Shown here: piece after piece, positions 27,601-60,600 of the stretch
How positions within the stretch are numbered: position 1 is the stretch's first letter
How the letters are laid out: the number at the start of each line of letters is the position of its first letter
Assembly (NCBI GenBank): GCA_037783545.1
Contig: JBBELK010000514.1
Coordinates: 310,001-374,000, forward strand
Direction of reading: 5' to 3'
Length of the DNA stretch: 64,000 bases
DNA from: Henricia sp. BOLD:AAB3569
Taxonomy: Eukaryota > Echinodermata > Asteroidea > Spinulosida > Echinasteridae
Made by a program: the position numbers and the translations under genes
Notes under the pieces: generated by a model
What the model was told of the DNA's origin: nothing
Seen by the model: only the letters and a program-made list of their open reading frames with translations
Databases searched by the model: none

Positions 27601-30600
27601 TTCAGAAACAAGTCACTCCAAACAAGTATCCATATTACAGCAGCCATATTACAGCAGCCTAGATTTTAAACTTTGCAATTTTGCTTAAGACAAACAATTC
27701 TGGTGACAAGCAACAACATTAGGTTAAATGATATTAAAAACAATTCTACCTGGAGTTGTCAGTACCGTAGGGATGCCTGTGGCTGTTTGCGGTGCAGCTG
27801 TTGTTTGGCCAGACACTGCGGGTACACAGGAATCGTTGCAATTATAAAATCAGGTTAAGATTCAGTCAAAAAGTAAACATTATTTTCAACAGCACCTTTC
27901 AAATTTGTACATCGTAAAATAAGAACATTTGTTCAGTTCGGGTTCGGCAAGTATTGTCGGCAGTGTGGGTTCCGGTTAAAAGTGATCACGCACGTGCAGC
28001 TAGCTTTCTTTATAAATTAGGGCATATGTATTTTTTTTTATCTTCAAACCCGCTCTTTTACACGATTTATTTGTCATAAAGAAAAAAAAACGGCGTTGGT
28101 GGGATGAAATGGACCCGGGAAACTTAACAGAATCCGAGGCTGGAGCGCGGCACTACTGTCGGAACTTGCATTGTGCATGCATTTTGTGATTTGTACCACG
28201 TGCAAACCATCGTGAGACTGCGTGGGTTGGTATTTTTTCCTAGCCTTTGGTGTTTGTAGTACCCGAAAGTATATCGCTGTATTTCTGTAAGAGGGCTTAT
28301 TGATTTCCGTGAAAATGCTTTTCACAATGTTGTGCGAAAAATTATGTCCAAGAAAATTCTGTCCCGAAACGCCATTTTCACAATGCAAATGTATATGCCA
28401 CGCCGCTAGACGGCGTTTTCAATCAAACCGTTCCGATCAATCGACAGTTATTATCAGCAGATCGTGCAGATGCATACTGCACGCTAACTCTATGGCTTTG
28501 GCACGTTGCGGCGATGGAGCCAATACAATACTTGATCGGCACCGATCGAGCAACATTCGTGTAGATATCGATCGTGAAGTCATGTCTGTACGGAGTCCTG
28601 CATGTCGGTACGGTGGGCGCCAGCGCGGGGCTCAAAATGTCGGATCTGATTTGGCACAAGAATTGCTTTGTACAGTGCATATGACGTTCGACAGTTAAAC
28701 ACGAAGCGCTTTTGCAAGCATAAGAAGTAATTTCGAGTGGTTTTTGACATTCAGGAAGCCAGCTGCCTTTCACATTTTACAGTTAAAATATGTAAGAGTG
28801 AAACACTCCCGAACAGCCGAACTGAGTGAAATGTTCGGTTCGGTCCGGTTCGGTTCGGAAGTGCCAAGTTCGGTAAAATCCCGTTCGGTTCGTATGTTCG
28901 GTTACAGCATTACTGCCAGGTACTCATTGTTCATAATCCAAATTATGATTCTAGCAGTCAACCTAGACAGTTTTTTTAACATTCTAAAATCAATGTACAT
29001 GTATGCATGTTCAATGACTACTTATATGAGGCTGCATTAATTGTAAATTTATTCTTTGAGTAAATGGGGTCATTTTAATGACGATTTTGGATCTAATTTG
29101 CATATTTATGACATCATAAAGACTCCATTCGTAACGCAACTATCCTTATCATACTTCTTGAACCTGAAAACATTGGAAAAGATGTCATGTTTGTCAAAAC
29201 TGGTTGTGGATTGGCACATATCGTGCTGCATAATACGCATTTTTATGCATATTTATGACATCATAATTGACTCCATTCACAACTCAACCAATCCCATCAT
29301 GATCATTGACCCTGAAAACATGGGAAAGGATACCTTGTTTGTCAAGATTGGTTGTGTATAATTGGCCGATTTATTGAGAAAGTAAGATTTCTCCATGAGG
29401 GGTAAGCGGAAATCATTGAGGGGCGGGTCTGCAGAAAAATGTATACAGATTTAGGCTTGACACCAAAACGTTTTTGAAAGGTCTTGGTACGTACAACAAT
29501 AAAATCATGGGTCACTTCGTACATCTTTGAGATGGACACGAACTCCCCCTAGAACCTGGACTAAATATTTCAATGTCAACTTAAAGGATGCATGAAATAG
29601 GACTTTTGTTACATAAATCTACAGTAGAGAATGTGTTTTACACATTTTAATCAAATTCAGGGAAATTAATAGTTGCGTTTTGGTGTAATTGCAAGTTTTC
29701 TATTTTTATGCTAATGAAAATTTGCATATTCATGACCAAAGCTGTGATGTCATCTCAGGACAACAGAGAAATTCTCTATAGACTTGCGTACAAAAGTTGG
29801 TGTCATTTTCACTGGCTTCTTGATATCATGAACTGAATCAGTTTACTGAGTTTGTTGAGTATGTCCATTTGCAACAATCCTAACAAATGGATCAGTGGGC
29901 TACCCTTACAAAAAAGTTTTATAGAATTCTATAGAACGCTTTATAGAGTTCTATAGAACTCTATAACATTCCAGATTCTCTATAGAACTTTTAAGGATTC
30001 TCTATAGAAATCGGTTTCCTCTATAGAATTCTGTAGAATTAGTTTTCTATAGATCTAAATTTCTATAGAAAATTTAATTTAAAAAAATGGCGTCCCCGCT
30101 TCTCTATAGAATTTTTACGGTTGTCTATAGAAATCGATTTCCTCTATAGAATTCTATAGAATTAGTTTTCTATAGATCTAAATTTCTATAGAAAATTTAA
30201 TTTAAAAAAATGGCGTCCCCGCTTCTCTATAGAATTTTTACGGTTGTCTATATAAATCGGTTTCCTCTATAGAATTCTATAGGCCATTCTATAGAATGTT
30301 TTATAGAGATTCTATAGAGGTCCGTTATAGATTTCTATAGAATTCGTATAGAAAAGTGTCCCACTTTTCTAAAGAATCTCTATAAAACATTTCTATAGAA
30401 TTGCCTATAGAAATTCTATAGATTTTTTTTTATAGAATTCTACAGAACTTTTTTGTAAGGGTACTGTTACTAGCTGTTTGAAATGTACTGTTTTTCCCTT
30501 TGTTTTTCAACTGTGGGTTCCATCCATTTTTACATAGAGCAATTAAATAGAAACTTTGCGTTAAATGCTATTAACCAGTAAAATTCCAGATGTTTAATAA

Positions 30601-33600
30601 AAACACACCTTAGTGTTGATAGTTCTTGATTTTTTTGCCCCCGAGACCCAAAACTTACCAACAACATTGACGTACATCTCACACGTTTCAGTATTTGAGG
30701 AGTTGTCGGTTGCACTATACAGCACTACATGGGGTGATGTTGCAAGGTCAAATGTGACAATGTCACCAACAGAATACGTAGTTTCATTCACATCAATGGA
30801 CAGAGTGTAGAATCCAAAGTTATCCACACCAGACACTACATCAGGTAGCTGCACTGTAGCATAGTTTTGGCCTGTTTCGGTGTCAACTGTCCGGTTGGCT
30901 GGACATGTGATGTTAGGAGATTCCTGATCTATAAGAGGGTACATGTACTACGTGTCAAAAAGAAAAACATGTCCTACTTTTGATCTTAAATAACCTTGTC
31001 ATTTTTAAACCAAAATTTCACATCATATAAATGAGGCCTGACAAATGTTATTGACTGAGTTTCATTAGCTTTGTCCAAGATAGTAAAATTTAAAAGCCAT
31101 ACGGGGAAAAAAGTGAATTTCAAAATTCGCCACTTTCGACTGGCGCTGGAGACAGTGGTGGAATGTGTGTGCTGCAGACGAACGCTTCTGAAGGAATAAA
31201 GGATCACTCAAAATGTTATTGCAAACCATCTCGATCGTTTCACGAAATTCATCAAGAGGTGCAAAGGGACCTCAGACATACACATTTTCCTTGACAATTG
31301 CGGATGCCAAGTCGGAAGTGGCAAATTATGAAATTGAGGGTTTTTAAATCTCACCCTCTTGGACAAAACTGACAAAACTCACTCAAAAGAATTTCTCAGG
31401 CCTTGTTTACATGATCTGAAATTTTTGATAATTAAATCCGTTGGGAATTCACAAACTTATTTAAGATCAAAAGTAGGAGTAGGACATGCTCTTCTTGACA
31501 CGTATGCTATACAAATATATAACATCATTTGAGGGTGTTTGAATATATCAGCGCTGTAAGATGCGAGTCCTGACTTTTCAAGGACTCGGCCAGTCAGGAC
31601 TCTGACTCTGTCTCTGACTCAAATTTAGAATTGACGAATTTCACATTAGCCATCCTCTTGCAACAGTGCCCCTTTAACGCACTCCCTAACTCCTGCGTAC
31701 AGTGGCCCTGTTGAAAAAGGCCCCATTTCGCGGTGGGACTAGCGACAGAAATCTTGTCGCCTCTGCTGGACCAATCAGGACGCTTGGCAGTGCATTGCAG
31801 CATGAGCAGGCCTTTGGGCCACAGTGACTTCACTTTTGTTCATCCTGGCCACCTTAGATTGGTTTGTCTTTGTGTCTTGTTACGTGTGTTGCTACAAGTA
31901 CAAATATTGTACAGTGACTGAATGAGTGTTTGTGTATGTGTGCTTTTCTGCGTGGCATTTAGGAGTGATTGTGCTTTCAGGCGAGTACATTCTTTCACTT
32001 TAGTTGCTTAATAAGAAGAGCCTCGTTATCAAACTCAGAAGTGGGTTTCAAATTGGTAAATTTGCGATTCATCTATAGTATAAATTAGGAGATTTGGCAT
32101 GAGTCCATTTTGTACATGTGTACAGTAAGACACATTTTACAAACAAGTATATTATTACGAACGCCAGAAATTATTTCAAGACCCTACTATAAATTATGTT
32201 GGGGCCAAAAATATATCAAACATGCAAAATGCGTAATAAATAATTTCAACTGCAATGATTTTGAACTTCTAAATACATTTTCACATCCCAAAGAAATATA
32301 TTTCTTTGCCTAAAGCTAATTTACCAGCTCCCATTGATGATAGGCACGATCACCGACACTTGACAGTCACTTATTTAGATTGAAACAAGAACTCTGGACT
32401 TTGACTCAGACATATGCTGGACTCCAACTCGAACTTGACTACGTACATTGTAGTTAATATTAGCTCTCGATCCTCAGTATTTGAATTTGACGGGTGAGTG
32501 GACAGTGGGGGGAGGAACATGGGGGCACACTTTCGGAGGCCATGTGCCCTCCAGGTCTTCTTGATGGCGCCGCTGCCTGACATCAGTGAAAATCCCATAT
32601 GTATACATAACAATCATGTTTTTTTTACGATGGGCCCCAGCAGTTTTTGTGGGACGATCTCTGGCTACGATGTTAATTGTTCCAGAAGGTTCAAGAAATC
32701 AGCAAAAGAGTACAACAAAAAACATTCTTTCTTTGATAATTACCTTCGACAGTGATGAAATATGTACACGTAGCTGTTAACCCAGCGGGGTCAGAAACGT
32801 GGCAGTCAATAGAGAAGCTGCCAACATACCACCCTGTTCTATCTCCAACTGAATTATCCAATGTGCAAGACCCGCTCGGCATACCAGAGTTGTCCGATAC
32901 GAAAGGAAAGATATTCCTGTATATGGATACCATTCTACCCGGAGAGGTGGGCAGTGTTCTGTTGGCACAGCCCACAAGACGCGGGGGCTCGGTATCTGAG
33001 GAACAAGACCATACTCATGTTATGTGTGAGAGGTGTGTCAATAAGGAGATTAATATATAAAGATTTGGCAGAAGCAGCGAGGAAAAGTAGGCAAGGAAAT
33101 TACTTTTGTTCAGACAGATGATGATATGCAGATGTTTTACCAGCAGTTGTTGATGAAAAGTATGAAAGCAAGTACCAAGTACTACAGAAGGAGAGTCCAA
33201 AAATTTATGAGCTGAGCTATGAGCCACATATAGACACCACGGCAAAGCACTTAAGCGAAGAAATAAAGATCGAAACTTAAAGGATTTAAGTTTGGATTTT
33301 TAAGTTTGCTCAGATTTTTCCAGAAAATGGATTTTGTTTCAACTTAGCAATCATATAAATTACTTCGCAAAAATTAAGCCTGGGTGATTATCAAAATTTT
33401 ATAATTGATTAATTGAGAGCAAAATAATTGCGATTAATCGCGATTATTTTGCTTAAAATTTGTGAACATCATTTCGAACCTTCAATTGTGCTCAAAACGC
33501 CAATACCATGAAAAAATAGTAGATCGTATCCAAAACCTGGGTTATAGTTCCAAAGGTAGTGGGTTCAAATCCCGGTCCGGTCCATCCATGGTGCGTGTAC

Positions 33601-36600
33601 CCTTGGGCAAGGTAATTTGCTACGCATTGCTTCTCTCCACCCAGGAGCAAAATGGGTACCTGAGAGGGTAGCAAAAGTTGATGTGTTTTATTAGCTGTTG
33701 AGCGCCCAAGGCAGCCCGGGTTGTATACTCCCCAGGGAGTTGAGGTGGTATATGGAGTGATTTAATGGAGCCATATGATCAGGGGTGATGATAATGTAGG
33801 CGCCTTGATCGGAATGAATATGGAAATAGTGGGCAGCCGGAAGGGGGAATCGAAACACGTACGTAATGCACTGATACGATGCAGACATCTGTAGCATATT
33901 GTACATCGTGTTTGGCTCAATTATAATCGCGCTACATGCACTGTGCTACCATCGATGGAGCTGCTAATCGCGATTAGTTGGAAATAATCGCGAGAGGCAG
34001 ATTAATCGATTGTTCAAAAAACCCGCGATTACTGGTAGTAATGCACATCAGCCATCGATTAATCACACTAATCACACAGGCTTACCCAAAATACTATCAA
34101 CGGTAAGAAAAGAAATGGATTATCTCCAATTTGGATGTGGAAGCAAAAAAGGTTGGTGTGATATCACTGCACTGCTAATGGATAAATTAGTTTTCAAAAA
34201 TGTTGATGATCTTTGAAAATACTCGAATTGAGGAGAAATTTCAGAACGGTAATGAGAAAAATACATGTATGACAAATGATGGCATCAAAATCTGAACACC
34301 CATGGGAAAATTGGGGGTGGTGGGGGGAGGGGGAGGGGGAGTGGGGGGAGGGGGAGTGGGGGGAGGGGGGGTGGGGGGAACGGTCTCAAGAATGTGATCT
34401 GCATGGACACGCTCTTTTAAGGCAATTAGCACCGTTGGCACTGTGTTACTTTTACTTAAAACATTTGTTGTAATCGATTTTTATTAATATTTATGAAGGG
34501 TATATATAGGTTTCACATTTATAAGTAAATTATAATTACGTTGTATTTCTAATGCAAAAGTAAAGAAAAACATAACACGCCCTGTGCAGAAGACACAAGG
34601 CTGTGGTTCAGGCTCATTGGGTAGTCTGGTTCCTGGACCAAAAAACTGGCCACTGTTCGCCACCAGACGCCACTGCTTGGACCTGTTGCATGCAACTGGG
34701 CTTCACTGCGTCTTGGCTCAAGAAATTGAACCTTTTTTTCTTTGCGAACATTGTCAACCGTGTTTAAATAATCTAGGCTTCCTAAATAAACTTCAACTTG
34801 ATTTATCGTTTTCAAATCAAATCTAAAAACACCAATGTCGACCGCTCTGTCAGAAAATGACCGCTCTGACAGAAAATGCCGTCTCTGACAGAAACGCTTC
34901 ATGGCACTAAGTATTGTGAAACTCCCAAATTAAGCGCAAAGCATCGGAAACAGCGGCGTAGGTTATCCCCCCCGCCCCCCCATGAAAAATCGTCCCCCCT
35001 GTAAAAACGGTAAAAACAGATTTACATGATCTACGTCATTTTCATCGCCCGAAATTCATGTCATTTTGATTGCCCCAAAGGTCGGCCCCCTCGCCCGCAC
35101 ACAGTACTTCAGAGTAATATTGAATGACAACAAGAGGATATAAGGGAAAGAAGGTCATCAGCAGCAGCAGCAGCAGCATTAGCAGCAGCAGCCAGCACCT
35201 CCAGCACCTCCAGCTCGCCAGTGTCGTTATGCATTGCTAGGCTATCGAATCATGCACGTGCGCTATAGTTGTGTTTGTTGTTGTACACATGTATGTCGTT
35301 TGTTCCCATATATGGTCAATTCAACCATCTGTATGACACCTTCTTCAAGCAAATGTGAGCTGTAATACATGTATAATATGTATAATACATGTATAATGTG
35401 AATATGGCTGAAACTAAATGTCATGAATTTACAAAGGGTGTTTTTTTTATGTGAGAAATATTTGATTTCGAAAAGATGCACTCCCTATTTGCAGAATGGA
35501 CGAGGATATTAGCCTTCACCATGGCCCTACAAACCCTCTGGGACCGTAAAAGCAGCTGACAGGGCAAGATAATTGGAGCGCGGTGAAATACGTGGCACAA
35601 ATTAGTAATTTTCCGAAGAATCTGTTGCAAAATCCGGGAGGGTTGGAAGCTCTGCACAAACACGTGTATTTTGTGTTTTTTTTCCTCCTTTTGATACTTT
35701 GCCAACTACTCGCGATTAATGGAGTACTACTCGTGAGTAATTGCTCCAACTGCTCGCGAGTAGCAAAATCAACTACTCGCCCAGCGCTTCCCGCTATATC
35801 ATCTAATCAAATGACAGGGATCAAGCGTTCATGGTTCAATACAATACAATTTAAGTTACGCTTTTACCTGTGATGTTCACAACTAATGTACAGTTATTGG
35901 TATTGCCGCTGGAATCCGTAGCAGTAAACTCCACGATGTGTTGTCCAATACTAAACGCAGATCCAGATGTTGCACTGGATACAGTAGTAACTGGCTGCAT
36001 GGAGTTATCAGTGACGCCAGGTGGGGGCCAGAAAGCGAGACCAAATGGCAGACGGGGAGTTGTCGAGTTGGTTATGTTATTGGGACACACAAGTTGCGGA
36101 ACCTCACGATCTAAAATTTTGAAACATAACATTAAAAAGGCCGGGGTAATTTGTTTGTCTAATCGTACACATTATGTTACATTCTTGGGGGGTCTGCTGG
36201 GATCATGATAATATAAAGTCCCATTATATCAGTTGCAATGACACAAATTTTACATCATGAGTGGACAAGAAAGCCTTAAATTTATTAATTAGATTTGCAT
36301 ATTTTAAAGTGTACACATCCTTTAAGGGGTCACTACTTTACAAGCTTTGATTTCTGAGAATCTCCTATATTGACGATTTGCTCTTTGTCTGTGCTCTTTG
36401 TTTATATCTAAAGCGTCCTCTGTTGAAAATTGGTCGTCATTATGAGGGCGCATCCCGTTTTGCATAAATTTGGTTTGGTAATGATGCCAAAGGTCAGATA
36501 ATTCAAAGAGTTGGCATGCGACCTCATTCCCAAACCATATTTATGTTTTTAAAAAATGGCGGCGCGCATTAACGCCAAGCATGTTTTGGTTTGTTGTGAC

Positions 36601-45600: not shown

Positions 45601-48600
45601 CTTGAAGCAATTAGACACAAACACCATTTGTAACACCAAAGTATAGCCATGTAGGCTATAATAAATGCTGGGAAAGGACTGCTCATTTGTCAAATTGGTT
45701 AGACCTGCAGAAGGACCTTTGAAGAAAGCTTTGCATGAGTGGCAGATCCAGTATCATTAAAATACAGGCATTATTATTAGGGGGTCAGACCCCCGCTTTT
45801 GCTTTGTATTCCTGTATTTTAATGAGGCTGGATCTGACACTGCTTTGTCATATGGCTTACAGAACAGGACTGATCATATGCGGATCCAGAATACATGTAT
45901 GTTGAATTTTTTGGGGGGGAGAAGAGGGGCTATAAGAGTCAATTGTTTTCTTTTTCAAAACTCCAGTCCCAATGTTTAAAAACGTGATATGTTGGGTCCA
46001 AGTTTAATACCTGGACTACATACATGTAGTGTAGGCCTACTCCCATAGACTACGGGAAGGGGAGTGCATTCTTCCCCTGCGTTTTTTCTTTTTTTTAAAT
46101 TGCATATAAGACTAACAGGGCATATTGTTCAAAACATCCAGTATACAACTTCTTCTTAGAACCACACATACTCTAAAGAAAGGTCGATTCCATAGACCTT
46201 TTCACAATTTTGCAGGACTGCATTGTGGGAAGGACAGTGATCAAATAACCTTCCCACAAGTTTTTCCCAAGTTGTATAATTCTTTATTTGGAACAGAAAA
46301 TATCTCCTGGGTTTATTGCAGAATACAACCTTTTTTAAGCCTTTGCATCACGGGCGACAATTAAAGGGGACAGTTACAATGTCACTGTGCGTTATACACG
46401 AGTACGAGTATATAGGCTCTTTGTGGATCTGTCACATTTTATTCAAATGGTGGCGGATCTTTTTTAAACAGTGGGGGGGGGGGGTTTGAGGGGGTTGCAT
46501 CCCCTCCCTTCAGCGGCGAACTAATGTTTAATGACAACATAAATAAAATATTGCATTAAAAATCCCTCTCCTGAAACCTTTAAAAAGCCCAAAGTGCCTT
46601 GGATTGCAGGAAAAAGCACAAATTTCAAAATTTCCCGGGCACCCCTAGCAGCGTGTTTTCGGCACACAGTAGGGGCCACAGCCCCACCCTTAACCAAAAG
46701 CAAAATCCGCCCCTGTGAAATGTAAAAACCTACCTGAACGACCTATTCAAACCAATTGATTTTTGAATTGGAATGAACTGGTCTTAATTGGCTCCAATTG
46801 GTCCTCAATTGGTACTGAATTGGTTTCAATTGGTCTGATATTCCTCCTATCAATTTATTTTCATCCAATCGGAATTTCCAATTGGTACTGAATTGGTTTC
46901 AATCGGTCTGTTATTCCTTCTGCCATTTTTTAATGTCCAATTGGAATTTCCAATTGGTACTAAATCCAACTCGAGAACCAACTGAAACCATTTCAATCCA
47001 ACTCGAGAACCAACTGAAACCATTTCAATCCAACTCGAGAACCAACTGAAACCATTTCAATCCAACTCGAGAACCATCTGAAACCATTTCAATCCAGTTC
47101 GAGAACCATCTGAAACCATTTCAATCCAGTTCGAGAACCAACTGAAACCATTTCAATCCAATTCGAGAACCAACTGAAACCATTTCAATACAATTCGAGA
47201 ACCAACTGAAACCATTTCAATCCAGTTCGAGAACCATCTGAAACCATTTCAATCCAGTTCGAGAACCAACTGAAACCATTTTAATCCAACTCGAGAACCA
47301 ACTGAAACCATTTCAATCCAGTTCGAGAACCAACTGAAACCATTTTAATCCAACTCGAGAACCAACTGAAACCATTTCAATCCAATTCGAGAACCAACTG
47401 AAACCATTTCAATCCAATTCGAGAACCAACTGAAACCATTTCAATCCAGTTCGAGTACCAACTGCATGAAACAATTTCAATCCAATTCAAGAACCAACTG
47501 AATTGAACCATTTCAATCCAATTCGATAAGAAACCATTTCAAGAACCAACCGAATTGAACCATTTCAATCCAATTCGAGAACCAACTGAAACCATTTCAA
47601 TCCAATTCGAGAACCAACTGAAACCATTTCAATCCAATTCGAAAACCAACTGAAACCATTTCAATCCAATTCGAAAACCAACTGAAACGATTTCAATCCA
47701 ATTCGAGAACCAACTGAAACGATTTAAATCCAGTTCGAGAACCAACTGAAACAATTTCAATCCAATTCAAGAACCAACTGAAACCATTTCATTCCAATTA
47801 AAGAACCAACTGAAACCATTTCAATCCAATTCGAGAACCAACTGAAACCATTTCAATCCAACTCGAGAACTAACTGAAACCATTTCAATCCAATTCGAGA
47901 ACCAACTGCAACCATTTCAATCCAATTCGAGAACCAACTGAATTGAACCAATTCAATCCAATTCGAGAACCAACTGAAACCATTTAAATACAATTCGAGA
48001 ACCAACTGAATTGAACCATTTCAATCCAATTCGATAAGAAACCATTTCAAGAACCAACCGAATTGAACCATTTCAATCCAATTCAAGAACCAACTAAATT
48101 GAACCATTTCAATCCAATTCAAGAACCAACTGAAACCATTTCAATCCAACTCGAGAACCAACTGAAACCATTTCAATCCAATTCGAGAACCAACTGCAAC
48201 CATTTCAATCCGAGAACCACCTAAAACCATTTCAATCCAATTCCAGAACCACCTGAAACCATTTCAATCCAATTCCAGAACCACCAACTGTAACCATTTA
48301 TATAATAAATACCAATTTAGACCCATTAACCACTATAAACCAAATAATATTGAATAAATAAAATTGTATACCAAACCATAACCAACCAAAACCATAAAAC
48401 CATTAAACCATCCAAATAACCAATTCAGACAACTTCCAAATTTAACATTCCATAATTTAGTCAGCATGAAATTGTAATAATTTGATTGGGGTTTAAAAAC
48501 ACAAGTCTACTTTCTGGTCATTATGGTTGTTGGAATTATGCTAATGCATGTAGTTATCCCACAGGTGTTCAACTTTATCCTGGCCTCTTTAATTGAAGCA

Positions 48601-51600
48601 TAGTATATGAAAGTTGAATTAGTACATATACAACAAGGGGAAGTTTGTTGATTTTCTCTATTTAAACATATTGTATATATCAACTAAAGACACCACAGTT
48701 GATTTTTGGATCGAAATGGTTTGAGTTGGTTCTCGAATTGGATTGAAATAGTTTCAGTTGGTTCTCGAATTGAATTGAAATAGTTTCAGTTGGTTCTCGA
48801 ATTGGATTGAAATAGTTTCAGTTGGTTCTCGAATTGGATTAAAATAGTTTCAGTTGGTTCTCGAATTGGATTGAAATTGTTTGAGTTGGTTCTTGAATTG
48901 GATTGAAATGGTTTCAGTTGGTTCTCGAATTGGATTGAAATGGTTTCAGTTGGTTCTCGAATTGGATTGAAATGGTTTCAGTTGGTTCTCGAATTGGATT
49001 GAAATGGTTCAATTCAGTTGGTTCTCGAATTGGATTTAAATGGTTTCAGTTGGTTCTCGAATTGGATTGAATTGGTTCAATTCAGTTGGTTCTCGAATTG
49101 GATTGAATTGGTTCAATTCAGTTGGTTCTCGAATTGGATTGAATTGGTTCAATTCAGTTGGTTCTCGAATTGGATTGAATTGGTTTCAGTTGGTTCTCGA
49201 ATTGGATTGAGTTGGTTCAATTCAGTTGGTTCTTGAAATGGATTGAAATGGTTTTAGTGAGTTCTCGAATTGGATTGAAATGGTTTCAGTTGGTTCTCGA
49301 ATTGGATTGAGTTGGTTGCAGTTGCATGGTTCTCGAATTGGATTGAAATGGTTTCAGTTGGTTCTCGAATTGGATTGATATGAAAATGAAATGGTTTCAG
49401 TTGGTTCTTGAATTGGATTGAAATGGTTCAATTTAGTTGGTTCTTGAATTGGATTGAAATGGTTCAATTCGGTTGGTTCTTGAAATGGTTTCTTATCGAA
49501 TTGGATTGAAATGGTTCAATTCAGTTGGTTCTCGAATTGTATTTAAATGGTTTCAGTTGCTTCTCGAATTGGATTGAATTGGTTCAATTCAGTTGGTTCT
49601 CGAATTGGATTTAAATGGTTTCAGTTGGTTATTGAAATGGTTTCAGTTGGTTCTCGAATTGGATTGAAATGGTTTCAGTTGGTTCTCGAATTGGATTGAA
49701 ATGGTTTCAGTTGGTTCTCGAATTGGATTGAAATGGTTTCAGTTGGTCCTCGAATTGGATTGAAATGGTTTTAGTTGGTTCTCGAATTGGATTGAAATGG
49801 TTTCAGTTGGTTCTCGAATTGGATTGAAATGGTTTTAGTTGGTTCTCGAATTGGATTGAAATGGTTTCAATTGGTTCTCGAATTGGATTGAAATGGTTTC
49901 ATGCAGTTGGTTCTCGAATTGAATTGAAATTGTTCAGTTGGTTCTTGAATTTGATTGAAATGGTTTCGGTTGGTTCTTGAATTTGATGGAAATTGTTTCG
50001 GATGGTTCTTAAATTGGATTGAAACGGTTTCAGTTGGTTCTTGAATTTGATTGAAATGGTTTCAGTTGGTTCTCGAATTGGATTGAAATGGTTTCGGTTG
50101 GTTCTTGAATTTGATTGAAATGGTTTCAGTTGGTTCTTGAATTGGATTGAAATGGTTTGGGTTAGTTCTTGAATTGGATTGAGATGGTTTCGGAAGGTTC
50201 TTCAATTGGATTGGAATGGTTTTGGTTGGTTATTGGGATTCTTTAAATTGGTTTGTAAATTGGTGCTTAATTGGTTTGAATTGGTCCAATTGAAAAAAGC
50301 GTCCCAATTTCGCATTGGAACCAATTGATATCCAATTAGAAAATGAATTGGTTCCAATTGGTAAATGAATTGGTATAGACAAATTGGTTCCAATTGGAAA
50401 ACCAATTGGCCGTTTTCAATTGGCCGGTGCACAAGGTCTATTTGTTTTCTGCTGACAGAACTGTTTATGCCCCGAAAAATATATATAAACACTTTTACCA
50501 GTTTGCATTAACTTTACCTTCAATGCGCACAACAAATGTACAGTTAGTGGTATTGCCGTTGGAATACGTAGCAGTGAACTGCACAATGTGCTGTCCAATA
50601 CTAAACGCAGATCCAGATGTTGCATTGGCTTCAGTAGTAACTAGTTGCGTGGATTTATCAGTGTCGCTAACTGTAGGTGCGGGCCAGAATGCAAGACCAG
50701 TCGGTAGACCGGGACTTGTAGAGTTGGTCACGTTATCGGGACACTCTAGCTGAGGAATCTTGATATCTAAGAAAACAGGATGGCACTTTATTTCAAGTGC
50801 AGTCTTTTAATGCAAGACATAAGTCAACTTATACTTTCCCATGGTAAAATGCTAAACTTGGGATGAGAGAAAAATCGTATAGTAAAATGCTGTAAAAGAT
50901 CTGGTATTTTTCGTTATCACAAACATTGGTGTGTGTGTACCCAGGTCTGTGCCAACATAATACTAACATAAACAAAACACCTTTCGCCTCGCGCTGAACT
51001 GTGCTTATTATTCACTGCTAGTATATACTGATCAACGATGTTTTTCAATGATCCAGTACCGGTCTTCATATTCGTATTTGTATGTTGAACATTAGCTCAG
51101 GGAACTTGTCTATGGGCGAGAAAGACGATGTGACAAATGTGCAAATTTAACCTCCAACTGATGTCGTCACGTCACAGTCCAAATAGTCAATGTGACAAAT
51201 TTTGTTGGGGGTGGGGGCGGGGGGGGGGCGGGGGGGGGGGGGGTGTGGTGTGGTGGAGGGGAGGAGCTAGAGGGGAGCATTGCGGGTGTAGGGCCCGGGG
51301 TTGGAGGGCGAGGGCCGAGAACGGTTTGGTACATGTAGAGCAAATTTCCTAACTCCATGACTCTTTATATCCGCCAGTACATTTAGATAAAAATTCCTTA
51401 TCTAGTATTTGTAAGACGACATTAACTGGCACAAATTAGGAAACTATTTGGGACAAATAAATCTGAAGCTTGGTACGTGTTGGCATGTAGCTTGATACAG
51501 CAGCAAATGGCATGCATAAGTAAATGATGTAAAAAAATAAAAAATAATTCACAACCCTGCAGCACATTGGCTTCTACACAACAATTCGATTAAGTGGTTG

Positions 51601-54600
51601 AATGCACAAGTTAATTACACTAAGTGCGACCCCATGCTTCAGAGAAATCATGCATCCTTCTACATTACCGGTACAAAGGCAAGTTCTACATGTACCCCAG
51701 GGTTCTGCTGCTACTTCAGGCAATACACTAGTGCAATGACAAAGCGTGCAAGAGTGACACATTTGTTGTGACAAAGTGCAGTTTCAGGGGTAAATTTTAC
51801 CTCTCAAAAAAAAAGAGAAGAGAAATTATTGATGCACCTCTTCTTCAGTATTAAGAACCTATTTTCTTTTTGACAAGCCATGCATATGCACATTAGTCTT
51901 TCCACAGTAAAGGGGGCATTTTGACAACACAGACCATATTTTCCAGAAAATACCTTTGTCTGGTCTTAAAATAAAAGAAATAAGTTTGTTGTTCTGAAGA
52001 GATAACTTAGGCCCAAAAAGGGTTACAAATAGTGTAACATGCCTTTCTAAAAACCCTGTGTACAAATTTCCAATATATGCTCGTAACCGGGACGGCCTTA
52101 ACACAAGTACCGTATGGCGAATATGCAGTTCGAAGTGTGACTGTCTTGGGGGTGGTTATACAGAATTAGCCCATGGGTCAGTACCAGGGCAGAGCTGGTC
52201 TCTTATCTTGTTGGCTTGGGGTCAAGTCAGTTTTTGGTTTTTGACTAGCTGCGACTTGACTCTGGAGAAAATGACTTGTGACTGGACTTGGGAAATGAGA
52301 TTGATTTACGACTTGAAATAAAAACCAGTCATCAAGTCTCCAGCCCCAGAGACATACTGCATAACCAAAACTGCAAGCGCAGTCTCCCACTCCAGGGGAA
52401 TAAATTGGAAAATTCCAAGCTGTTAGAAGTGGTTAACAATGTACATGTATAGTGTAATGAAATGAAGGTATATTTCCATGCAACATGCAACAATACTATT
52501 ATTACCAATTAGAGTTCAGACCGCTTTTGAGAATAACACAACCTGAAACTGAAAAGTCAAACATGTAAAAAATTGATGTAAATCTAACTATAAAGTTTCA
52601 ATCCTGTTGTACAATAATATTGATAGCTTTCGACCACGTTGACGTTGCTTGCAACATCCGGAAATGTTTGGATCGCCGGCCACGCGTGTACACGCGTGCG
52701 GGTTTATCTATTCAAACCGTGGACGTTTTCTCTGGTTTAAAGGGAACAATATCGTCCGCGATTGCCAAGCGAACGTCCGCGATTCGTCTCGTGTACAAAA
52801 CAAACGAGAAGACGAAGAAAAAAAACTATGTCCAAACAAAAGAGGAACAATGGGACGTCCGCGGTGGGAGGTGAATTCACACCTATATGCGCGAGCGCCA
52901 ATAGACACACATGAACATGCGTAAAAAATACCCACCAGCGTATTTTCATTCAAGAAAGCCGCACGCGCGCATTGCGATACGTTTAAATTATTGAGCATGT
53001 ACTCAGCTTGTAAAAATTGATTACTTGATCACGATTCAGCCTGAAGAAAGACAGTTTTATCTTTCTCGATACAACAGCCGTGGCGCAACAACATAAAGGT
53101 TAAGCAACAGAGGTAAGTGCAACCAATGCGCTTTTCTTGCTCTTTTTTGCTGGTTACCACTCGGGCCACGTGGGTCATGATTGTCAAATGACACCCAAAA
53201 TGGTGGAAGGCCGTAAAGCTATCAATAGACCTTTAGCACGGAAGTATCTTGTTCCCCCCCCCCCCCCCCCCCCCTCTCGATTAAGATGCAGATGCCCTAC
53301 ATGTCCCATGCCATACTGGCAAAAGCGGATTATGTATGGTCCAAATATTTTCATGTTATAACAACCATATTGAAATCATTTTTATACAATTACCTCCAGG
53401 GTTAAAAGTAATGACATTTGATGTGAGATCTGTCCAGTACTGTGAGTACTCAAACACAACTGTTGCTCTGGAAAGAGAAAGGAAAAAAAATGAAAATACA
53501 TGTAAAAAAGGTTCTTTTAATACTTAGTAATCTTGTGTCATGCCAAAATTATAAACAGCCAAAGAGAACGGTACATACATGTTGAACAAAAAGAAGGAAA
53601 TGTAAAAAGTCAAAAAAGTTAAAAAAAAAAGTAAATAACATTACTGCTTGGAAACTATTCCAAAATTGCAAACAAAATCACATCCCGAGGAGTGAATACC
53701 AATAAACAGTTTTTATATGGCAGGGTTGTAAGTTGTAATATTTGTATTAAGTCAAGTTGAAAGTAACAAGTCAATTTGTTTTGAAGTTTATGTGAACATT
53801 CTTTTCATATACATACCAGTGTGCTAATTTCAGTTCCACACTGGACAATATGTTGACAAGGGAAAACAAAGTGGGGAAAAAGGGAAGCTACCAAACAAAA
53901 AGTGGAGGTCATTTTTTCCCCGACAAAGCTGTTAACTTTAGGCAAACTGACCAAGTTAATTAGTATACATTTTTTTTAGTCAATTTATTTATCAGGGTAG
54001 AATTATCCTACAGTACAACTTAAATCAAATTCAAGTACACTGCCAAAAATGATTTTCTTACTTGAGAAACATTTTCTTGAAACGAGAAAATATATCTTAT
54101 TTTAAGAAAACTGCTGTGAATTCTATGTTGCCGTTAGAAATATTTTCTTGAAATGCTAGAATGTGTTAGCTGTTTTGTGTAATTTTCTTGAAACGAGAAA
54201 CTATATCTTATTTTAAGAAAACTGCTTTGAATTCTATGTTGCCGTTAGAAATATTTTCTTGTCATTAAGAAAACATTTTCCTACATTAAAGATATTTTCT
54301 CAAAACAAGAATATTTTGAATTTTTTCCGAAATTAAAAATATTTTCTCAAAACAAGAATATTTTTTACCAATCTCAGAATACTTTTCTAAAAACAAGATT
54401 TTTCCCTTTCCATTCAGCATGTTCATAAATTGTGTATATTAAATACAGCACGAGCATGTGAACTTTGACTGAAGTATTAAAGATACATGTATACATGCAT
54501 GCTTCCTAGCTTTCCACCTCCCCCCTTGCACATGTATTTTGGAATGTTTGCAGAGCTCTAGTAGAATCTTTATAGGTCCAAGTTGCAGGGGACTTAAAGG

Positions 54601-57600
54601 CATAGGCTCGTCGGCAATGCGCGCCCGCCAAACGTGTGCCACGCAATACGCAGCTCCATAGCAAAGGCATGGAGCTGCGTGTTTCGAGCACGAATTTGGC
54701 GGGCGCGCATTGCTGACGAGCCTGTGCCTTTAACAGAAACTATAAGGAAAACCTAAAGAACAAAAAAAGACCAAAACCTTTCCTTCTAAGTAGAATATGT
54801 TATCGCTACTCTGAAGTTCGCTTGACTGCACATTACATTTTTAAAAGAAAATATATCTTGAAATGTTTAATAATTATTACTTTAAGAAAGATTATCTTGT
54901 TTTAAGAAAACAGTTTTCTTGGTATAAGAATTAAACCTCTATTAAAAAATAATAAAATCTAGGGTTTAGGAACATTCCTAATTAATTGTTCCTAAGTCAT
55001 TTAGGAACAATTTATTTGGGAAAATTCCTAACTTAGGCATGATTAATTATCCTAAGTTAGGAACAATAAGTTGAGAATTTATAAAAAGCTCCTATCTTTA
55101 TAGTAAGTGAAAGCATGGTAGGAAGAGGCTGTGTGACCTTTGACCCATGTGTTCACTTGAAAAGTTGAGAGAGTGACCATTCTTTTCTTCAAACAGTCCT
55201 AATTTCTGTAAGTATTTGCTTCATATCTCAATATTCTATGAATATTAGTTTAGTATAAGATTAAAAACGATAATTGTAATACACATGGAGGGAATGTCAT
55301 CTTCCAGGTAAATCAGAAAGTTGCATTTTAGGTAGATTTTAGCCTCGGTTAGTGCATCAAATTAACACACACTAAACTCCCCTATACAAATACATACAGA
55401 AACTTGTGTTGGTAAATATTGAACTAGGCCTATATGCAGTGTTACATACACACACTATGAACATCTAACAATGGAAATTGGGCATACACCATTGTTACTA
55501 ACAATGGGGTTACAATGAACATGTACATGTTCTTGCTCATAGTGACATGTAGGCCTGCAGGAAAAAAATGGTTCTATGCATTTTTTATATCAAAACCTTC
55601 TTTTCTGTTTAAGCTTAATTAGGCCTAGCCCAGGGGCCAATTTCATGGCGTTGCTTAGCACAAATTTGCACAAATTTGCTTAGGACAGAATTTTTTTGCT
55701 TTATTTTGCAAAAATGGATTGCCAGCCAAAATCCTAATTGATATTAAAAGGTACATTGTATTCTCCTACTCTTGCGAAGAACACAAGTTGGCGTATATTT
55801 TTTGCTTGTAATCCATTTTATAAAGCAAATAAATGTAGTGCTAATCAAATTTGTGTGCTTATAGCAGCGCCATGAAATTGGCCCCAGGTTGGACTCCATA
55901 TATGACGCGCGTGCTGATGATTTTCTCTTTGTTTTTTTTGCATGGAAAGTGACGCACGTGCGCTAACACTAAACTGGGAAACCTAACGTTTTGGACCCCT
56001 AATTTTGAGAATTACCCATATTCATTGCACAATGTAATTCCCGTCATTGGCTCTATAATTTTCATGCATGCTTTATTTAAAAAAAGAAATAACTAGTTTT
56101 GAGAAAATTTAATGAGAAAATAATTCTTGGTTTTGAGAAAAAAATTATAATAACCACCTTAAAAAGTATCTCGTTTGTGTTGGACATCCCAGAAAAATGT
56201 TTTTCTTTAATCAAGAAAAATAAAGTTTTCATGTCTCCCAAGAAAAAATGTGCGAGAAAAGATTTCTTAATTTTTTTCTTGTTTCAAGATGTTATCATAG
56301 TTGAGAATTTTTTTCTAAAAAGGTTAGAAAAAGTTGTTAAAACTCTTTTCTAATTTTTAGAAAATTATTCTTGACCTAGAAAAAAATAATTACTTAAATC
56401 AAGAAAAAAAAAGGATTTTCTAGCTATACTCCCAAGAAAATATGTGCGAGAAAAGATTTCTTAATTTTTTTCTAGTTTCAAGATGTTGTTTTCTTAATTG
56501 AGAATATTTTTCTAAGAAGATCAGAAACAGGTTTTAAAACTTTTTTTCTAATTTTTAGAAAATTATTCTTGACCTAGAAAAAAAGATTACTTAAATCAAG
56601 AAATTAGGAATAAAAAGTTTTCTTGCTATACTCCCAAGGAAAAAAATCTTGAAATAAGTTTTTTTTTCTTAAAATGAGAATTTCATTTTTGGCAGTGTAC
56701 CTTCAGTTCTTTAAAAGCAGGCTTTGAAAAAAAGATTTGTAAACAAAAATTTAGCCCATATAGGAATTGCTTTTTATAACCGAGTTAAGATTTAAAATTA
56801 TCCTTCATGCACCGTCATTTTTCACAAGTAATCATGCCCTCCAGTATGTAATGTACTCTTGCACTTTACCTGGGAATTTTGGTATTTGTGGCTGGCTTGT
56901 ACTGTTTAACCGGTTTTGTTTTGTTTTTGGTTTTTTTAAGCTGGTGCTAGTCTGGACATACCTGGCCACAAGAGGGCCGCTGTCTTCCTCCGGAGGCAGC
57001 CATTGAGCAGTGACTGAAGTTTTCTCATTGTTATCGCTATGTCCCCATGCATCCTGAAATAGAACAAAGTGTTAGATGGCTCAAACTACTGGCACATGAT
57101 ATACCCGGTACGTACTACTCACAAAAATTTGAAAGGCCTAAATGCCGCCGCACACGAGATATCGCTGAGCAAACGATCATTCGTGGTCGTTTGCTCAACG
57201 CTTGGCTCACCGTGTGCGGTAAAATTTTGCTTTGTTTTCCGCCTCACTTTCCGCCTCACGAAGCCGTGAGACAAAAATCTAACATGTTTGATTTTTTTGG
57301 CCTCGCCCAGCCAAAATCTCACCGCCAGCCAAGGTCACAGCACTTTCACTTTGAAAAAAGTAGACAGCAAGTGCAGTGACCTCGGCAGGAGCAGCGCGCA
57401 CTGTCTTCATATCACGTGAATAGGAGATTTTTGTATTGGCCAGTTACATTCATTTTAGCTCAGCACTTGGCTGCGTAGACTGGTTCCCGCTCCACATATT
57501 CCACATAAATAGATGAGGACCGGCAGCCAACACGTTGAAAATAGTAACATGACGTCATGCGTTTATTTTTTTAGGAGCGCAGCTATGATTAGTTGCAGCT

Positions 57601-60600
57601 CATAACTGCAGCCATCATATAACAATTTCAAAGGGGTTGTATATTCCATTTATGGCCAATAAAAATGTAATCTAACCTTTGACGTACACGTATATACCGT
57701 GTAAAGATTTGATGATAAAAATAATATGAGGAAAAAATATCAAAACTTTTTAGAACTTGTTTGCCTTAAAAATGTCCACATGCCCATATACTATAGGAAC
57801 AAAAAATCAAATTCAAACCTTGTCTGCATCATTACCAATAAACATTTGGCGGCACGCGGCATTCATGCCATTAAAATTCTCGAAACACTGACGAATCGCA
57901 CCCGACGATCAATGATAACATCCGGACGTTAACCATTCGGGTAACTCCGGTTTAAATCGGGGGAGAGGGGGGGGGGGGAGTTAAATCTAGTAAATCAAGT
58001 AAACCTATACTGGACCTAAATCTCGGGGTTAATAATAATAATAATACAGATTTATAAAGCGCACATTCTAATACAAATAATTACTCATGGCGCTGGTAGG
58101 AAACAAAAATAGGGAAGCCAATATGCTTGCTTAAATAATAATGTCCTTAGGTCCCTTTTAAAAACTGCCAAAGACGGGGAGTTCCAGATATAGTTTGGCA
58201 ATTTGTTCCAAAGAGTTGGTCCCATATGTGGTTAAAGTGTCGTGGGAAAAAGCCTTGGGTGGCTGACTAAACATTGAGAGTATTCTTTAGCAATGAATGG
58301 TGCATGGCTGTGTGCAATATCTCGGCGTACTCGGATTTGGGTTTGGAATTTGTCTACTATACAGAGACATCATAAAGCATTAAAGCATGCATATACTTAC
58401 AATGACTGCCAATAAATTAGTGAATAAACCGTCAAAAATGGGGGGAAAGTAACTCGTCGGTTTGAGATACTAACCTTGGGTGGATACATCCACGTGCGTT
58501 TATAGTACGTATGTACTAAATGTATACCTACTCTCTAAATGCAAAAGAGTGAAAAACCTCACTCTTTAAAAGAGTGACTCCCTTATAAAACCACTCGGAA
58601 ACAGTGAAAATCACTCTAAAAGGAGTGAAATTCTGTAAAAAGAGTGGCAATCACTCCAAAAAGAGTGGGAAAAACCACTCCACAAAGGAGCCATATAAAG
58701 GACAGCTCGAAAAAAAGCTGTCCTTTATATGGCTCTTCCTTTGAGTGGTTTTGTCCACTCTTTTTGGAGTGATTGCCACTCTTTTTACAGAATTTCACTC
58801 CTTTTAGAGTGATTTTCACTGTTTGCGAGTGGTTTTATAAGGGAGTCACTCTTTTAAAGAGTGAGTTTTTCACTCTTTTGCATTTAGAGAGTATAAACCT
58901 CCGAATTTTTGAAAAGTTTAGTTGCAAGTTTTAAATTACTGTAGATATGCTGATGTCCCGTACATGTACGTGCAGGGCCAAATTTTATGGAGCTGTTCAG
59001 CAAAATACTGCCCTTCATCAGCTATATTTGTATACTTTCGAGTAGTACTTTATATACATATACCAGTGTTTATATATGCCGAGGGTAATCTTTTATTCAT
59101 AAATACTGCTGCCTTTCCGGGTATTTGGAGTGTCACCCGGGTGTGTGCAATCAGTTAAATAGTTAAAGGACTAGCTGCCAGGAAGGGCTGGACAGTTAAT
59201 TCTTTTGAGAGACAACCAGCAGCCACCACGCCTAGGTTATATTTAGGCAGACCAAGCATGGGCGGTTCAGTGGCTGAACGCTGCACAGCACCTCTGAGCC
59301 GAGTGACCAAGAAACTGTATGCTCAGCCACATGAGTCTTATCGAACGGGACCGCACAACCAAATACGAACTCCTAAGTCTTCCGCACCGACCACTTGACC
59401 GAGAACGCATTCGTCTAATCGAAATCGCATCGCACCACCAAGTTAATTCTGCTCACCGCCCGGATATCGCTCGCAAAATGCCACATACCGGTAGCTACAT
59501 GTACATGTAGATGTTTTAATTAAACCCCAAAGAACAAAAAAACATGTTAATTGGCAAAATATGATAGGTTGCAGATGGCGGCCATCTTGGATTTCAAAAT
59601 GGCCACCATTTCGGAACCATTTTCAGGTTTTTTTTAGTGGTTTCTGGTTCTACTGAATGTGGTGAAAAAATTGACTGGAAAAAAGTATACCTAAATCAAT
59701 TCATTAGAAATGGGTGGATTCTAGGTCAATTCCAACATGGCCGCCAATGACATTGAAAATCGCTGAAATGTCTGTAATTTCCATAATATTTGGAGTAAAA
59801 CAGTGATTTAAATGTCTACCCTGGGGTTTTTAGGGTCAGGGAATTCACTGGCATCAATAACATTTCAATCCAACCTTCGACAAACAATAAAAGCCATAAA
59901 CTCAAAATGGTGGTCATAATACAGGTATGAATAAAGGAGGTAGAGAAAATGACTTCTCTTAACTGCTTATGCCAGATGTAGCTTAATTCTTTTATTGGTC
60001 AGTAATGTGCATAACAAGACCCCGCGCCCCCATCCTGTGGCAAGGCTGGCTGCATCAGTCGACCATACGAGCCGCTATAAGACAGGGTGCGCCATTCTGC
60101 CAGAATTGACTACCTGACAATCTGTACTTCTAGGGCCAGGGCTGTTTTGGAGACGCGTGGTCCCATCCCAGCCCAGCCTGAAGCCATCCCAGCCCAGCCT
60201 GAAGCCATCCCAGTCCAGCCCGAGGCCGTCCCAGCTAGACCAGCCCGAAGCCAGTTTACCATGTCATGGGCCCTTTAAGTGAATAAATACTACCAGAAAA
60301 CAGTTTTTTCAGTGTTTTTTTAAGCATACCTTCATAAAACTAATTTATATAGGCTAATTTGGCTAAAACAATGGGAAAATCACCGATATTCCATGCTTAT
60401 ATATTTTCATTGCCTTCGGCAGGGGTTGGCACTATATCCCATACACCAGAAGGCTCAAAAAGAAAACGTTTGGAGTCAGAATTTGCATTGTTGCTAAGGA
60501 CTTTATGCCTTAACAGAAGTAAAACCTTCTACGCCATTTTTCTCTAAAGCGCTTCTTAAAAAACTGTACTCTTGGTCATCACGGAAATGGTAATAACTTG

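Follow-up and report, generated by a model that had tools for sequence, protein, structure and literature searches.

The four word-rich elements F1 to F4, located in a 64-kb stretch of Henricia sp. DNA (hereafter the window, that is, the whole stretch analysed), combine a short tip of the form CNCT with arrays of a family-specific subterminal word. F1, F3 and F4 are multi-copy mobile families with inverted ends and word-rich interiors in the 740.7 Mb Henricia sp. assembly, and a fourth family is represented by F2, a damaged copy. F1, F3 and F4 are mobile and leave 2-bp target duplications, the plan of the four elements is common to elements of the same genome that encode a PF02992 (EnSpm/CACTA) transposase, and the tip and word of F1 stand beside a decayed gene of this type. 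We consider it likely that F1 and F2 are non-autonomous animal EnSpm/CACTA elements of the TRC-like kind, with F3 probably in the same superfamily and F4 working alike; F3 and F4 are not filed as TRC members because their tips begin with CACTG and CTCTCT, not CCC.

Architecture of the four elements

The features of the window are as follows (coordinates, strand, description).

29901..29902, no strand, F1 left target duplication TA (2-bp duplication established on other copies)
29903..30461, plus, F1 element, 559 bp, tip CCCTTACAAAAAAGTT, word TCTATAGA
29976..30282, plus, F1 internal direct tandem repeat, 123 bp unit, 2.5 copies, 95% matches
30462..30463, no strand, F1 right target duplication TA
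46740..50418, plus, F2 element, left limit approximate, word CCAATTGG, right tip lost after 50418
46963..48283, plus, F2 left arm, 32-bp direct tandem array
48706..50231, minus, F2 right arm, reverse complement of the 32-bp array
54036..54037, no strand, F3 left target duplication TA
54038..56697, plus, F3 element, 2660 bp, tip CACTGCCAAAAATGA, AAGAAAA/TTTTCTT in the outer parts
54598..54729, no strand, MITE nested in F3, TTAA on both sides
56698..56699, no strand, F3 right target duplication TA
58529..58530, no strand, F4 left target duplication TA
58531..58891, plus, F4 element, 361 bp near-perfect inverted repeat, tip CTCTCTAAATGCAAAAG, words GAGTG/CACTC
58892..58893, no strand, F4 right target duplication TA

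The sequence-only reading had proposed a single plan built from unrelated words, and this is supported. Each element has a word excess over 200 dinucleotide shuffles, scored within limits slightly offset from the exact elements (29911-30462, 46740-50430, 54041-56698 and 58529-58893). Specifically, TTCTATAGAA occurs 25 times in F1 with at most one mismatch (shuffle mean 0.3, maximum 3), CCAATTGG 62 times in F2 at the same tolerance (mean 4.1, maximum 11), AAGAAAA/TTTTCTT 21 times in F3 (mean 3.5, maximum 10) and GAGTG/CACTC 20 times in F4, 10 per orientation (mean 0.7, maximum 4). The accompanying claim of word-rich interiors needs correction for F3, in which the words are confined to the outer parts. 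Apart from 54838-55038, its middle (about 54438-56037) contains almost no words, and its right part alone contains 9 words, not above the shuffle maximum of 9. Among the six other plus-strand F3 copies compared, the nested MITE is missing from L122, L125, L128 and L136, present in L120 and ambiguous in L126. Helical phasing of the words at 10.5 bp was rejected as a general property: it is not supported in F1 to F4 or the remaining arrays, and among the 14 arrays tested, with uncorrected p values, support comes only from two of the transposase loci described below, L139 (R 0.78 on unique distances, p about 0.002) and L141 (R 0.88, p about 0.005).

The term foldback, in its strict sense of long inverted tandem-repeat arms around a middle, applies to F2 alone; in F1 and F3 the inverted ends are short, and F4 is one long inverted repeat. 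F2 appears without clear ends since the right tip is missing from the window copy. Four other F2-family copies finish with ...CCAATTGGCCGTTTTCAGTAGGG, giving a tip of CCCTACTGAAAACGG followed by CCAATTGG, which is of the CCCT type; the CCC tip of TRC elements is thus present at these four right ends, and it is found in F1 copies as well. The F3 tip starts with CACTG (CACTGCC) and that of F4 with CTCTCT (CTCTCTA). Within each of the F1, F3 and F4 families, copies compared across the genome share their interiors, which are therefore inherited and not made afresh in each copy. In IMG/VR, the F1, F3 and F4 tips match 1, 20 and 34 stretches, respectively, where BLAST finds at most 26 bp of F1 to F4.

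Target duplications and transposase-bearing relatives

Each of the exact F1, F3 and F4 elements is flanked by TA in the window, as the sequence-only reading had noted, but the border is not fixed to TA in other copies. Matched flanking dinucleotides occur in 7 of 8 two-ended F1 copies (TA, TC, TG, CA and CT; L116 is unmatched), in 4 of the 5 readable F3 copies among 6 examined (TA and TG; L136 is unmatched) and in 27 of 33 F4 copies (TA 23, AA 3, CA 1). The 6 unmatched F4 copies include L076, which has TA on both sides and a disrupted left tip, while five F4 length variants were picked for perfect tips at both ends, a selection that favours matched borders. Homologous empty sites hold TA once for the F4 copies L080 and L078 and CT once for the F1 copy L117. 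Defining the duplications in genome copies, a check that the earlier reading had named, thus gives 2 bp, the length found in TRC-like EnSpm/CACTA elements, with TA as one of several dinucleotides duplicated. Within the window, the paralogue pair 30526-34950 / 40582-45422 does not serve as an F1 or F2 empty site, its flanks failing to align at the insertion points.

A profile search of the genome yields 23 PF02992 matches. The three loci examined from this list (L139, L140 and L141) each carry an intact frame of 757-898 aa, downstream of which lies a word array of CCATGG in L139, CAGTTG/CCAACTGG in L140 and GCAAGCTTGC in L141; PF02992 elements follow the plan of F1 to F4 with different words, namely CCATGG, GCAAGCTTGC and CCAGTTGG. 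In L139, transposase, tip and word are united in one element, its intact frame being followed by the CCATGG array and, at the right end, the tip CCCTTACAAAAATGT. Matches on five further contigs are 100% identical up to ...GTAAGGG and end there, 2.5-2.7 kb past the same frame; these places are counted by contig in an assembly that contains duplicated loci, e.g., L064/L071. An empty site at C242 together with the left flank at C8:331606 defines an element of 14,929 bp bordered by CT/CT, with its left end positioned from its flank at C8:331607. The left end was not found in L139:1-1300, a stretch occupied by another word-built MITE, and the tip of L140 was sought without success.

A candidate for the partner transposase with matching ends, which the earlier reading had suggested seeking, was located for F1: at L143 (contig C267), the tip CCCTTACAAAAAAGTTCTATAGAATTCTATAGAA closes an array and lies 2.3 kb beyond a decayed PF02992-type transposase gene, the exact tip and word being seen at this one locus and at its right-hand end. 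The L143 transposase, interrupted by in-frame stops, is 41-43% identical to the protein of L139; its strongest segment reaches 22.7 bits, below the Pfam cut-off of 28.6. The chance of an F1-type end falling within 2.5 kb of a transposase match is about 0.03 (59 x 79 x 5000 / 740.7 Mb), as calculated from 59 scored transposase candidates and 79 first-look F1 candidates that are not all distinct loci. Across six transposase loci (L139-L141 and L142-L144), the F3 and F4 tips were not found; L142 and L144 bear none of the F1, F3 and F4 tips, and their second frames have no Pfam match. L142 (contig C409) was rejected as an F3 partner, with F3 fragments ending about 3.4 kb upstream of its transposase-like frame and the F3 tip absent. 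The tip CCCTTACA[A/G]AAA is nearly constant in F1, L139 and L141, whereas the words differ (TCTATAGA, CCATGG and GCAAGCTTGC, respectively).

Growth of the interiors and alternative origins

A separate foldback class that grows by repeated inverted duplication of its words through hairpin replication errors, as the sequence-only reading had put forward, is highly improbable. It would account for the words in both orientations, for the single arm-scale inversion that is real in F2 and in F4, and for a mean flank identity of inverted word pairs that modestly exceeds the background in several arrays (0.343 versus 0.258 in L139, for example). However, among word pairs whose flanks are at least 70% alike, direct pairs outnumber inverted pairs in 15 of 15 arrays, a set in which two F1 rows overlap and F4 contributes only 1 versus 0. 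Direct versus inverted counts are 15 versus 2 in F1, 609 versus 4 in one L116 array, 1782 and 2503 versus 0 in the two F2 arms and, at the weakest, 17 versus 9 in L143. Moreover, the five F4 length variants comprise 7 deletions and 1 insertion that directly repeats its neighbour; none of 28 regular F4 copies has an indel of at least 5 bp, these being best-scoring copies and hence biased against indels. A first count of mirrored substitutions between the F4 arms (12 versus 3.1 under a uniform expectation) would favour hairpin copying, but column-wise permutation of 27 copies, with only 169 pairs complementary in the consensus and L071 dropped because it has flanks in common with L064, gives 7 versus 4.4 mirrored changes (reached by 12% of shuffles) and 5 versus 2.5 complementary changes (reached by 9%), neither indicating significant arm-to-arm correction. 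Judged from these alignments, direct tandem duplication, rather than inverted copying of words, appears to be the main way in which the interiors lengthen.

The TA borders of all three tips in the window and of 23 F4 copies among the 27 with matched dinucleotides, together with palindromic interiors, could also identify F1, F3 and F4 as Tc1/mariner MITEs. TA is the sole target duplication of Tc1/mariner elements, and exactly matched TC, TG, CA, CT and AA copies, the F1 empty site carrying CT and the F1 tip adjoining a PF02992-type gene make this assignment improbable. A mixed origin, with the CCCT-tipped F1 and F2 in EnSpm/CACTA and F3 and F4 in another superfamily with 2-bp duplications and a convergent architecture, is rather unlikely. 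It draws on the F3 and F4 tips, which lack a partner transposase at the six loci and are unlike CCCTTAC, and on Harbinger-related (PHIS) elements, which according to the portion of PMC12730594 available can also leave 2-bp duplications; against it, the CACTG of F3 resembles the classical CACTA tip, and F3 and F4 have the same plan and 2-bp duplication as F1.

Relation to known elements and proposed mechanism

The architecture is already known, and this genome is an unusually clear example set: in place of the unnamed class once supposed, the plan fits TRC elements and plant CACTA subterminal repeats, and PF02992 elements reside in the same genome. TRC elements (SmTRC1 and relatives) are animal members of the CACTA superfamily with a Transposase_21 (PF02992) protein, a CCC tip and a 2-bp target duplication defined from empty sites, and transposase relatives are reported in Strongylocentrotus purpuratus (PMC1636069, in part). 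The Henricia elements, with the transposase as in L139 and the CCC tip as in F1 and F2, resemble them in these three features; tandem repeats lying 3' of the frame and truncated copies are further points in common. Unlike the TRC account, which in the available part of PMC1636069 describes a 54-bp terminal repeat containing a repeated 15-bp motif, together with a single tandem region, with no long palindromic-word arrays reported there, Henricia contains several families in one genome, each with its own word. Spongebob_HMa (EnSpm-4N1_HM) of Hydra likewise has a CCC tip and a 2-bp duplication and is assigned to CACTA TRC elements, the portion of PMC4298943 at hand describing no word array. In plant CACTA/En-Spm elements, subterminal motifs vary by family, lie in direct and inverted orientation and are recognised by TNPA-like proteins (PMC2613891 and PMC8978399, in part). 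The present elements share the family-specific motifs and both orientations, and subterminal 10-20-bp units, direct and inverted, as described for plant-type CACTA in the relevant part of PMC8978399, are present. However, those plant elements carry CACTA at their tips and leave 3-bp duplications (PMC2613891 and PMC8978399, in part); F1, F2 and F4 start with neither CACTA nor CACTG, only F3 starts with CACTG, and the duplications are 2 bp, which sets the elements apart from CACTA sensu stricto.

Galileo is a member of the P superfamily. The foldbacks Tetris, Galileo and sea urchin foldback have long inverted tandem-repeat arms and modular non-autonomous copies, Galileo internal repeats contain extra transposase sites, and most foldbacks seem to be Mutator members, with exceptions (PMC4079207, in part); F1, F3 and F4 differ in leaving 2-bp duplications.

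In the mechanism that we propose, the transposase encoded by the element would cut at the tip, and the words would be candidate sites at which the transposase or a partner protein docks, by analogy with TNPA of plant CACTA. Arrays would lengthen via direct tandem duplication, through unequal exchange or slippage, and interiors would shrink through deletion, with longer arrays perhaps favoured because more sites may mean better mobilisation. The expected left ends are CCCTTACAAAAA followed by CCATGG for the L139 element and CCCTTACAAAAA followed by TCTATAGA for the F1 partner at C267.

What is freshest here is the pairing of a nearly constant tip with an interchangeable word, the F2 family (CCAATTGG) carrying a related CCCT tip. 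More tentatively, a conserved transposase may read the tip while a fast-evolving second reader reads the word, such that families could escape cross-mobilisation by word swaps and arrays could expand in a docking-site contest; on this reading, the palindromic words suggest a symmetric, putatively dimeric reader. The elements also counsel caution: Tc1/mariner does not follow from TA borders seen in one window, and "foldback" interiors rich in words can have an origin other than hairpin copying. The several near-identical places of the 14.9-kb CACTA-type element, along with families of common tip and different word, provide a testable case, and such families could answer which protein reads the subterminal words, how quickly this specificity shifts and whether mobilisation is driven by array length.

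Word-rich elements and their copies

Four elements of the window carry interiors made of many copies of a short, family-specific word:

29903-30461, F1, TA on both sides
~46740 to 50418, F2
54038-56697, F3, TA on both sides
58531-58891, F4, TA on both sides

Tested against dinucleotide shuffles of the same stretch, words are in excess in all four elements (F1, 25 against a shuffle mean of 0.3; F2, 62 against 4.1; F3, 21 against 3.5; F4, 20 against 0.7). The word-rich interiors described in the sequence-only reading are therefore upheld, except within F3, whose middle is almost without the F3 word and whose right part, taken by itself, stays within the shuffle maximum. The F3 middle also holds a fifth short word-built patch (54955-55100; TTAGGAA/TTCCTAA, 3 + 3 copies in 400 bp), through which F3 copy L120 aligns. 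A MITE nested in F3 (54598-54729, TTAA on both sides) looks piggyBac-like; four other F3 copies have a clean empty site in its place, and a 92% relative lies at L140:6674-6760.

Family copies were sought in the 740.7-Mb assembly G000, in which the window is C514:310001-374000. For F1 there are two further complete copies, 98-99% identical, besides a few partial ones, and its tip (terminal sequence) is matched at both ends of four longer elements of 4.8-7.2 kb. F2 has 15 further right ends at 71-85%. Four of them, fetched, extend to the tip ...CCAATTGGCCGTTTTCAGTAGGG, the point at which the window F2 breaks off. The left 390 bp of F3 gives 30 further near-full matches, 19 of them at 98-100%, some being duplicated loci of the assembly (C885/C489 and C752/C727 have identical flank). 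The F4 copies are 93-97% identical to the window copy in the better orientation (40 places scored of 369 candidates), each place being detected on both strands because F4 is a palindrome; allowing up to one mismatch, its 22-bp tip is found 369 times and the reversed pattern 0 times. Additionally, contig C501 holds 25 of the 77 matches of the F3 22-bp tip pattern (one mismatch), 18 on the minus strand within the first 0.91 Mb and 7 on the plus strand beyond 1.17 Mb; these form a cluster of a family whose tip is F3-like.

Open frames of the window resemble exons of EGF, HYR and Ig type from an animal gene, and on this ground the DNA was taken to be that of a deuterostome. Direct repeats of ~1.34 kb (37034-40410; 99% identical, TGTAACC...GGTTACA, CTAG on both sides) enclose ~0.7 kb in which no long frame is seen, and look like a young non-autonomous LTR element. 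Three multi-copy palindromic families (2600-3020 and 51895-52101; 754-993 and 55627-55882; 1153-1656, 10232-10809 and 23109-23648) do not look word-built on inspection. G-rich runs lie at 24216-24265 (50 bp), 34313-34379 (67 bp) and 51207-51243 (37 bp).

Target duplications

Genome copies of F1, F3 and F4 are mostly bordered by 2-bp duplications. Specifically, the dinucleotide is matched in 7/8 two-ended F1 copies (TA, TC, TA, TG, TA, CA, CT), the exception being L116 (GT/TG). For F3, the window copy has TA, two fetched copies also have TA, a third has TG and a fourth is unmatched (CG/CA); the right end of one examined copy was not found. F4 shows 18 TA, 3 AA and 1 CA matched among 28 copies, of which loci L064 and L071 are one duplicated locus with common flanks; with five length variants picked for intact tips (TA in 5/5), the total is 27/33. 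At 1/16 each, the chance of so many matches is 3e-8 for F1, 7e-5 for F3 and 2e-27 for F4. At homologous empty sites the dinucleotide stands once: a single TA for F4 at L080 (against L144, 82% identity) and L078 (against a second, element-free copy of its flank, 91%), and a single CT for F1 at L117 (against L098, 77%), where three further matches carry extra bases at the insertion point. The comparisons for L068 and L077 are ambiguous. Given the matched non-TA dinucleotides and the empty sites, TA is a favoured target, strongly so in F4, rather than a fixed border.

Word arrays beside transposase genes

A genome search with PF02992 (Transposase_21) gives 23 matches, and one with a PF02992 protein at least 61 (59 of 123 candidates scored). 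Six loci were fetched, L139-L141 from the former and L142-L144 from the latter. L139, L140 and L141 have intact frames (757, 759 and 898 aa), each followed downstream by a short-word array: CCATGG 31 times in L139 (30 before the tip), CAGTTG/CAACTG 47 times in L140 and GCAAGCTTGC 27 times in L141. The arrays of L139 and L141 terminate in CCCTTACAAAAATGTCCCATGG (read inward) and CCCTTACAGAAATTTGTGATTGCCGCAAGCTTGC, respectively; a tip was not found for L140.

Array and gene lie in one element at L139. Its end is matched at 100% through ...GTAAGGG on C1324, C1776, C1368, C899 and C560, and the match stops there (one base later on C1324); the flank of these five contigs is therefore unlike that at C8, which carries L139. 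All five hold the L139 transposase frame, 99-100% identical, ending 2.5-2.7 kb before the tip. The right flank matches C242 at 99% with the element absent (...GGT CT TGTG...), the left part of C242 aligns with C8 up to 331606, and a third contig, C1051, has both flanks adjoining (87% and 96%). The empty site and flank match thus set the element at C8:331607-346535, 14,929 bp, with CT duplicated and the left limit placed by flank match. Inside it, L139:23-560 is a further word-built MITE (CAACTCGACCGT in both orientations), with at least 23 matches of at least 470 bp at 92-99% (40 of 3052 candidates scored).

For a partner transposase with matching ends, raised in the sequence-only reading, F1 has one decayed candidate, beside a single matching end. 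L143 carries a PF02992-type gene with stops, 41-43% identical to the L139 protein (best piece 22.7 bits against Pfam, under the cut-off), after which comes an array of TCTATAGA, closed 2.3 kb on, at 6680, by F1's own tip CCCTTACAAAAAAGTTCTATAGAATTCTATAGAA. More distant are L142 and L144, a group with 30-34% identity in the protein search and without a Pfam match; no F1, F3 or F4 tips were seen in them. Second frames downstream of their diverged transposases (L142:7194-7577, L144:4397-4834; no Pfam match) are candidates for a putative word-binding partner protein, and six places score like C189 in the protein search. Separately, the element at L141:5400-6210 has inverted ends and contains a AAACAGTGTTTATCG array; L144:265-690, with ends resembling it by eye and the array absent, is perhaps a length variant of that family.

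Change of the interiors and class assignment

The interiors had been proposed to grow by inverted word duplication, perhaps through hairpin copying. Among word pairs with flanks at least 70% alike, direct pairs outnumber inverted ones in 15/15 arrays, and where inverted pairs rise above background they are few (L143 9/452, L114 4/312). Mean inverted flank identity exceeds background in several arrays (L139, 0.343 vs 0.258; L140, 0.335 vs 0.262; L141, 0.342 vs 0.266), a rise that could stem from palindromes extending beyond the word or from some inverted copies of old date. F1 contains a 123-bp tandem repeat, F2 a 32-bp array and F3 tandem copies at 97.5% and 83%. The five F4 length variants show 7 deletions and 1 insertion, the latter a direct repeat of neighbouring sequence, and new changes mirrored between the F4 arms show no significant excess. 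Taken together, the array and F4 results speak against continuing growth through hairpin copying, and arm-scale inversion must lie in the past of F2 and F4.

A limited search of an open-access library showed no paper on the F1-F4 families. The view that no named class fits is not supported. Foldbacks are a named structural class, in which Galileo has extra transposase sites within internal repeats (PMC4079207). TRC elements are described as animal CACTA relatives that combine Transposase_21 and tandem repeats with a 2-bp duplication and a CCC tip; relatives of the TRC transposase occur in Strongylocentrotus purpuratus (PMC1636069). A CCC tip and 2-bp duplication are reported for a Hydra EnSpm element (PMC4298943), and 2-5-bp duplications for the wider CACTA-Mirage-Chapaev-Transib clade (PMC12730594). 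The hallmark of plant CACTA elements is units of 10-20 bp, some direct and some inverted (PMC8978399); such motifs differ from family to family and are bound by TNPA-like proteins (PMC2613891).

The most likely identity of F1 is that of a TRC-like EnSpm element of the non-autonomous kind, and F2 is very likely another. F3, with its CACTG tip, 2-bp duplication and common plan, probably belongs to the EnSpm/CACTA superfamily. F4 works like F1-F3 and is left outside any class, since its tip is of neither the CACTA nor the TRC type and the loci fetched yielded no partner. The words themselves are best read as putative docking sites.
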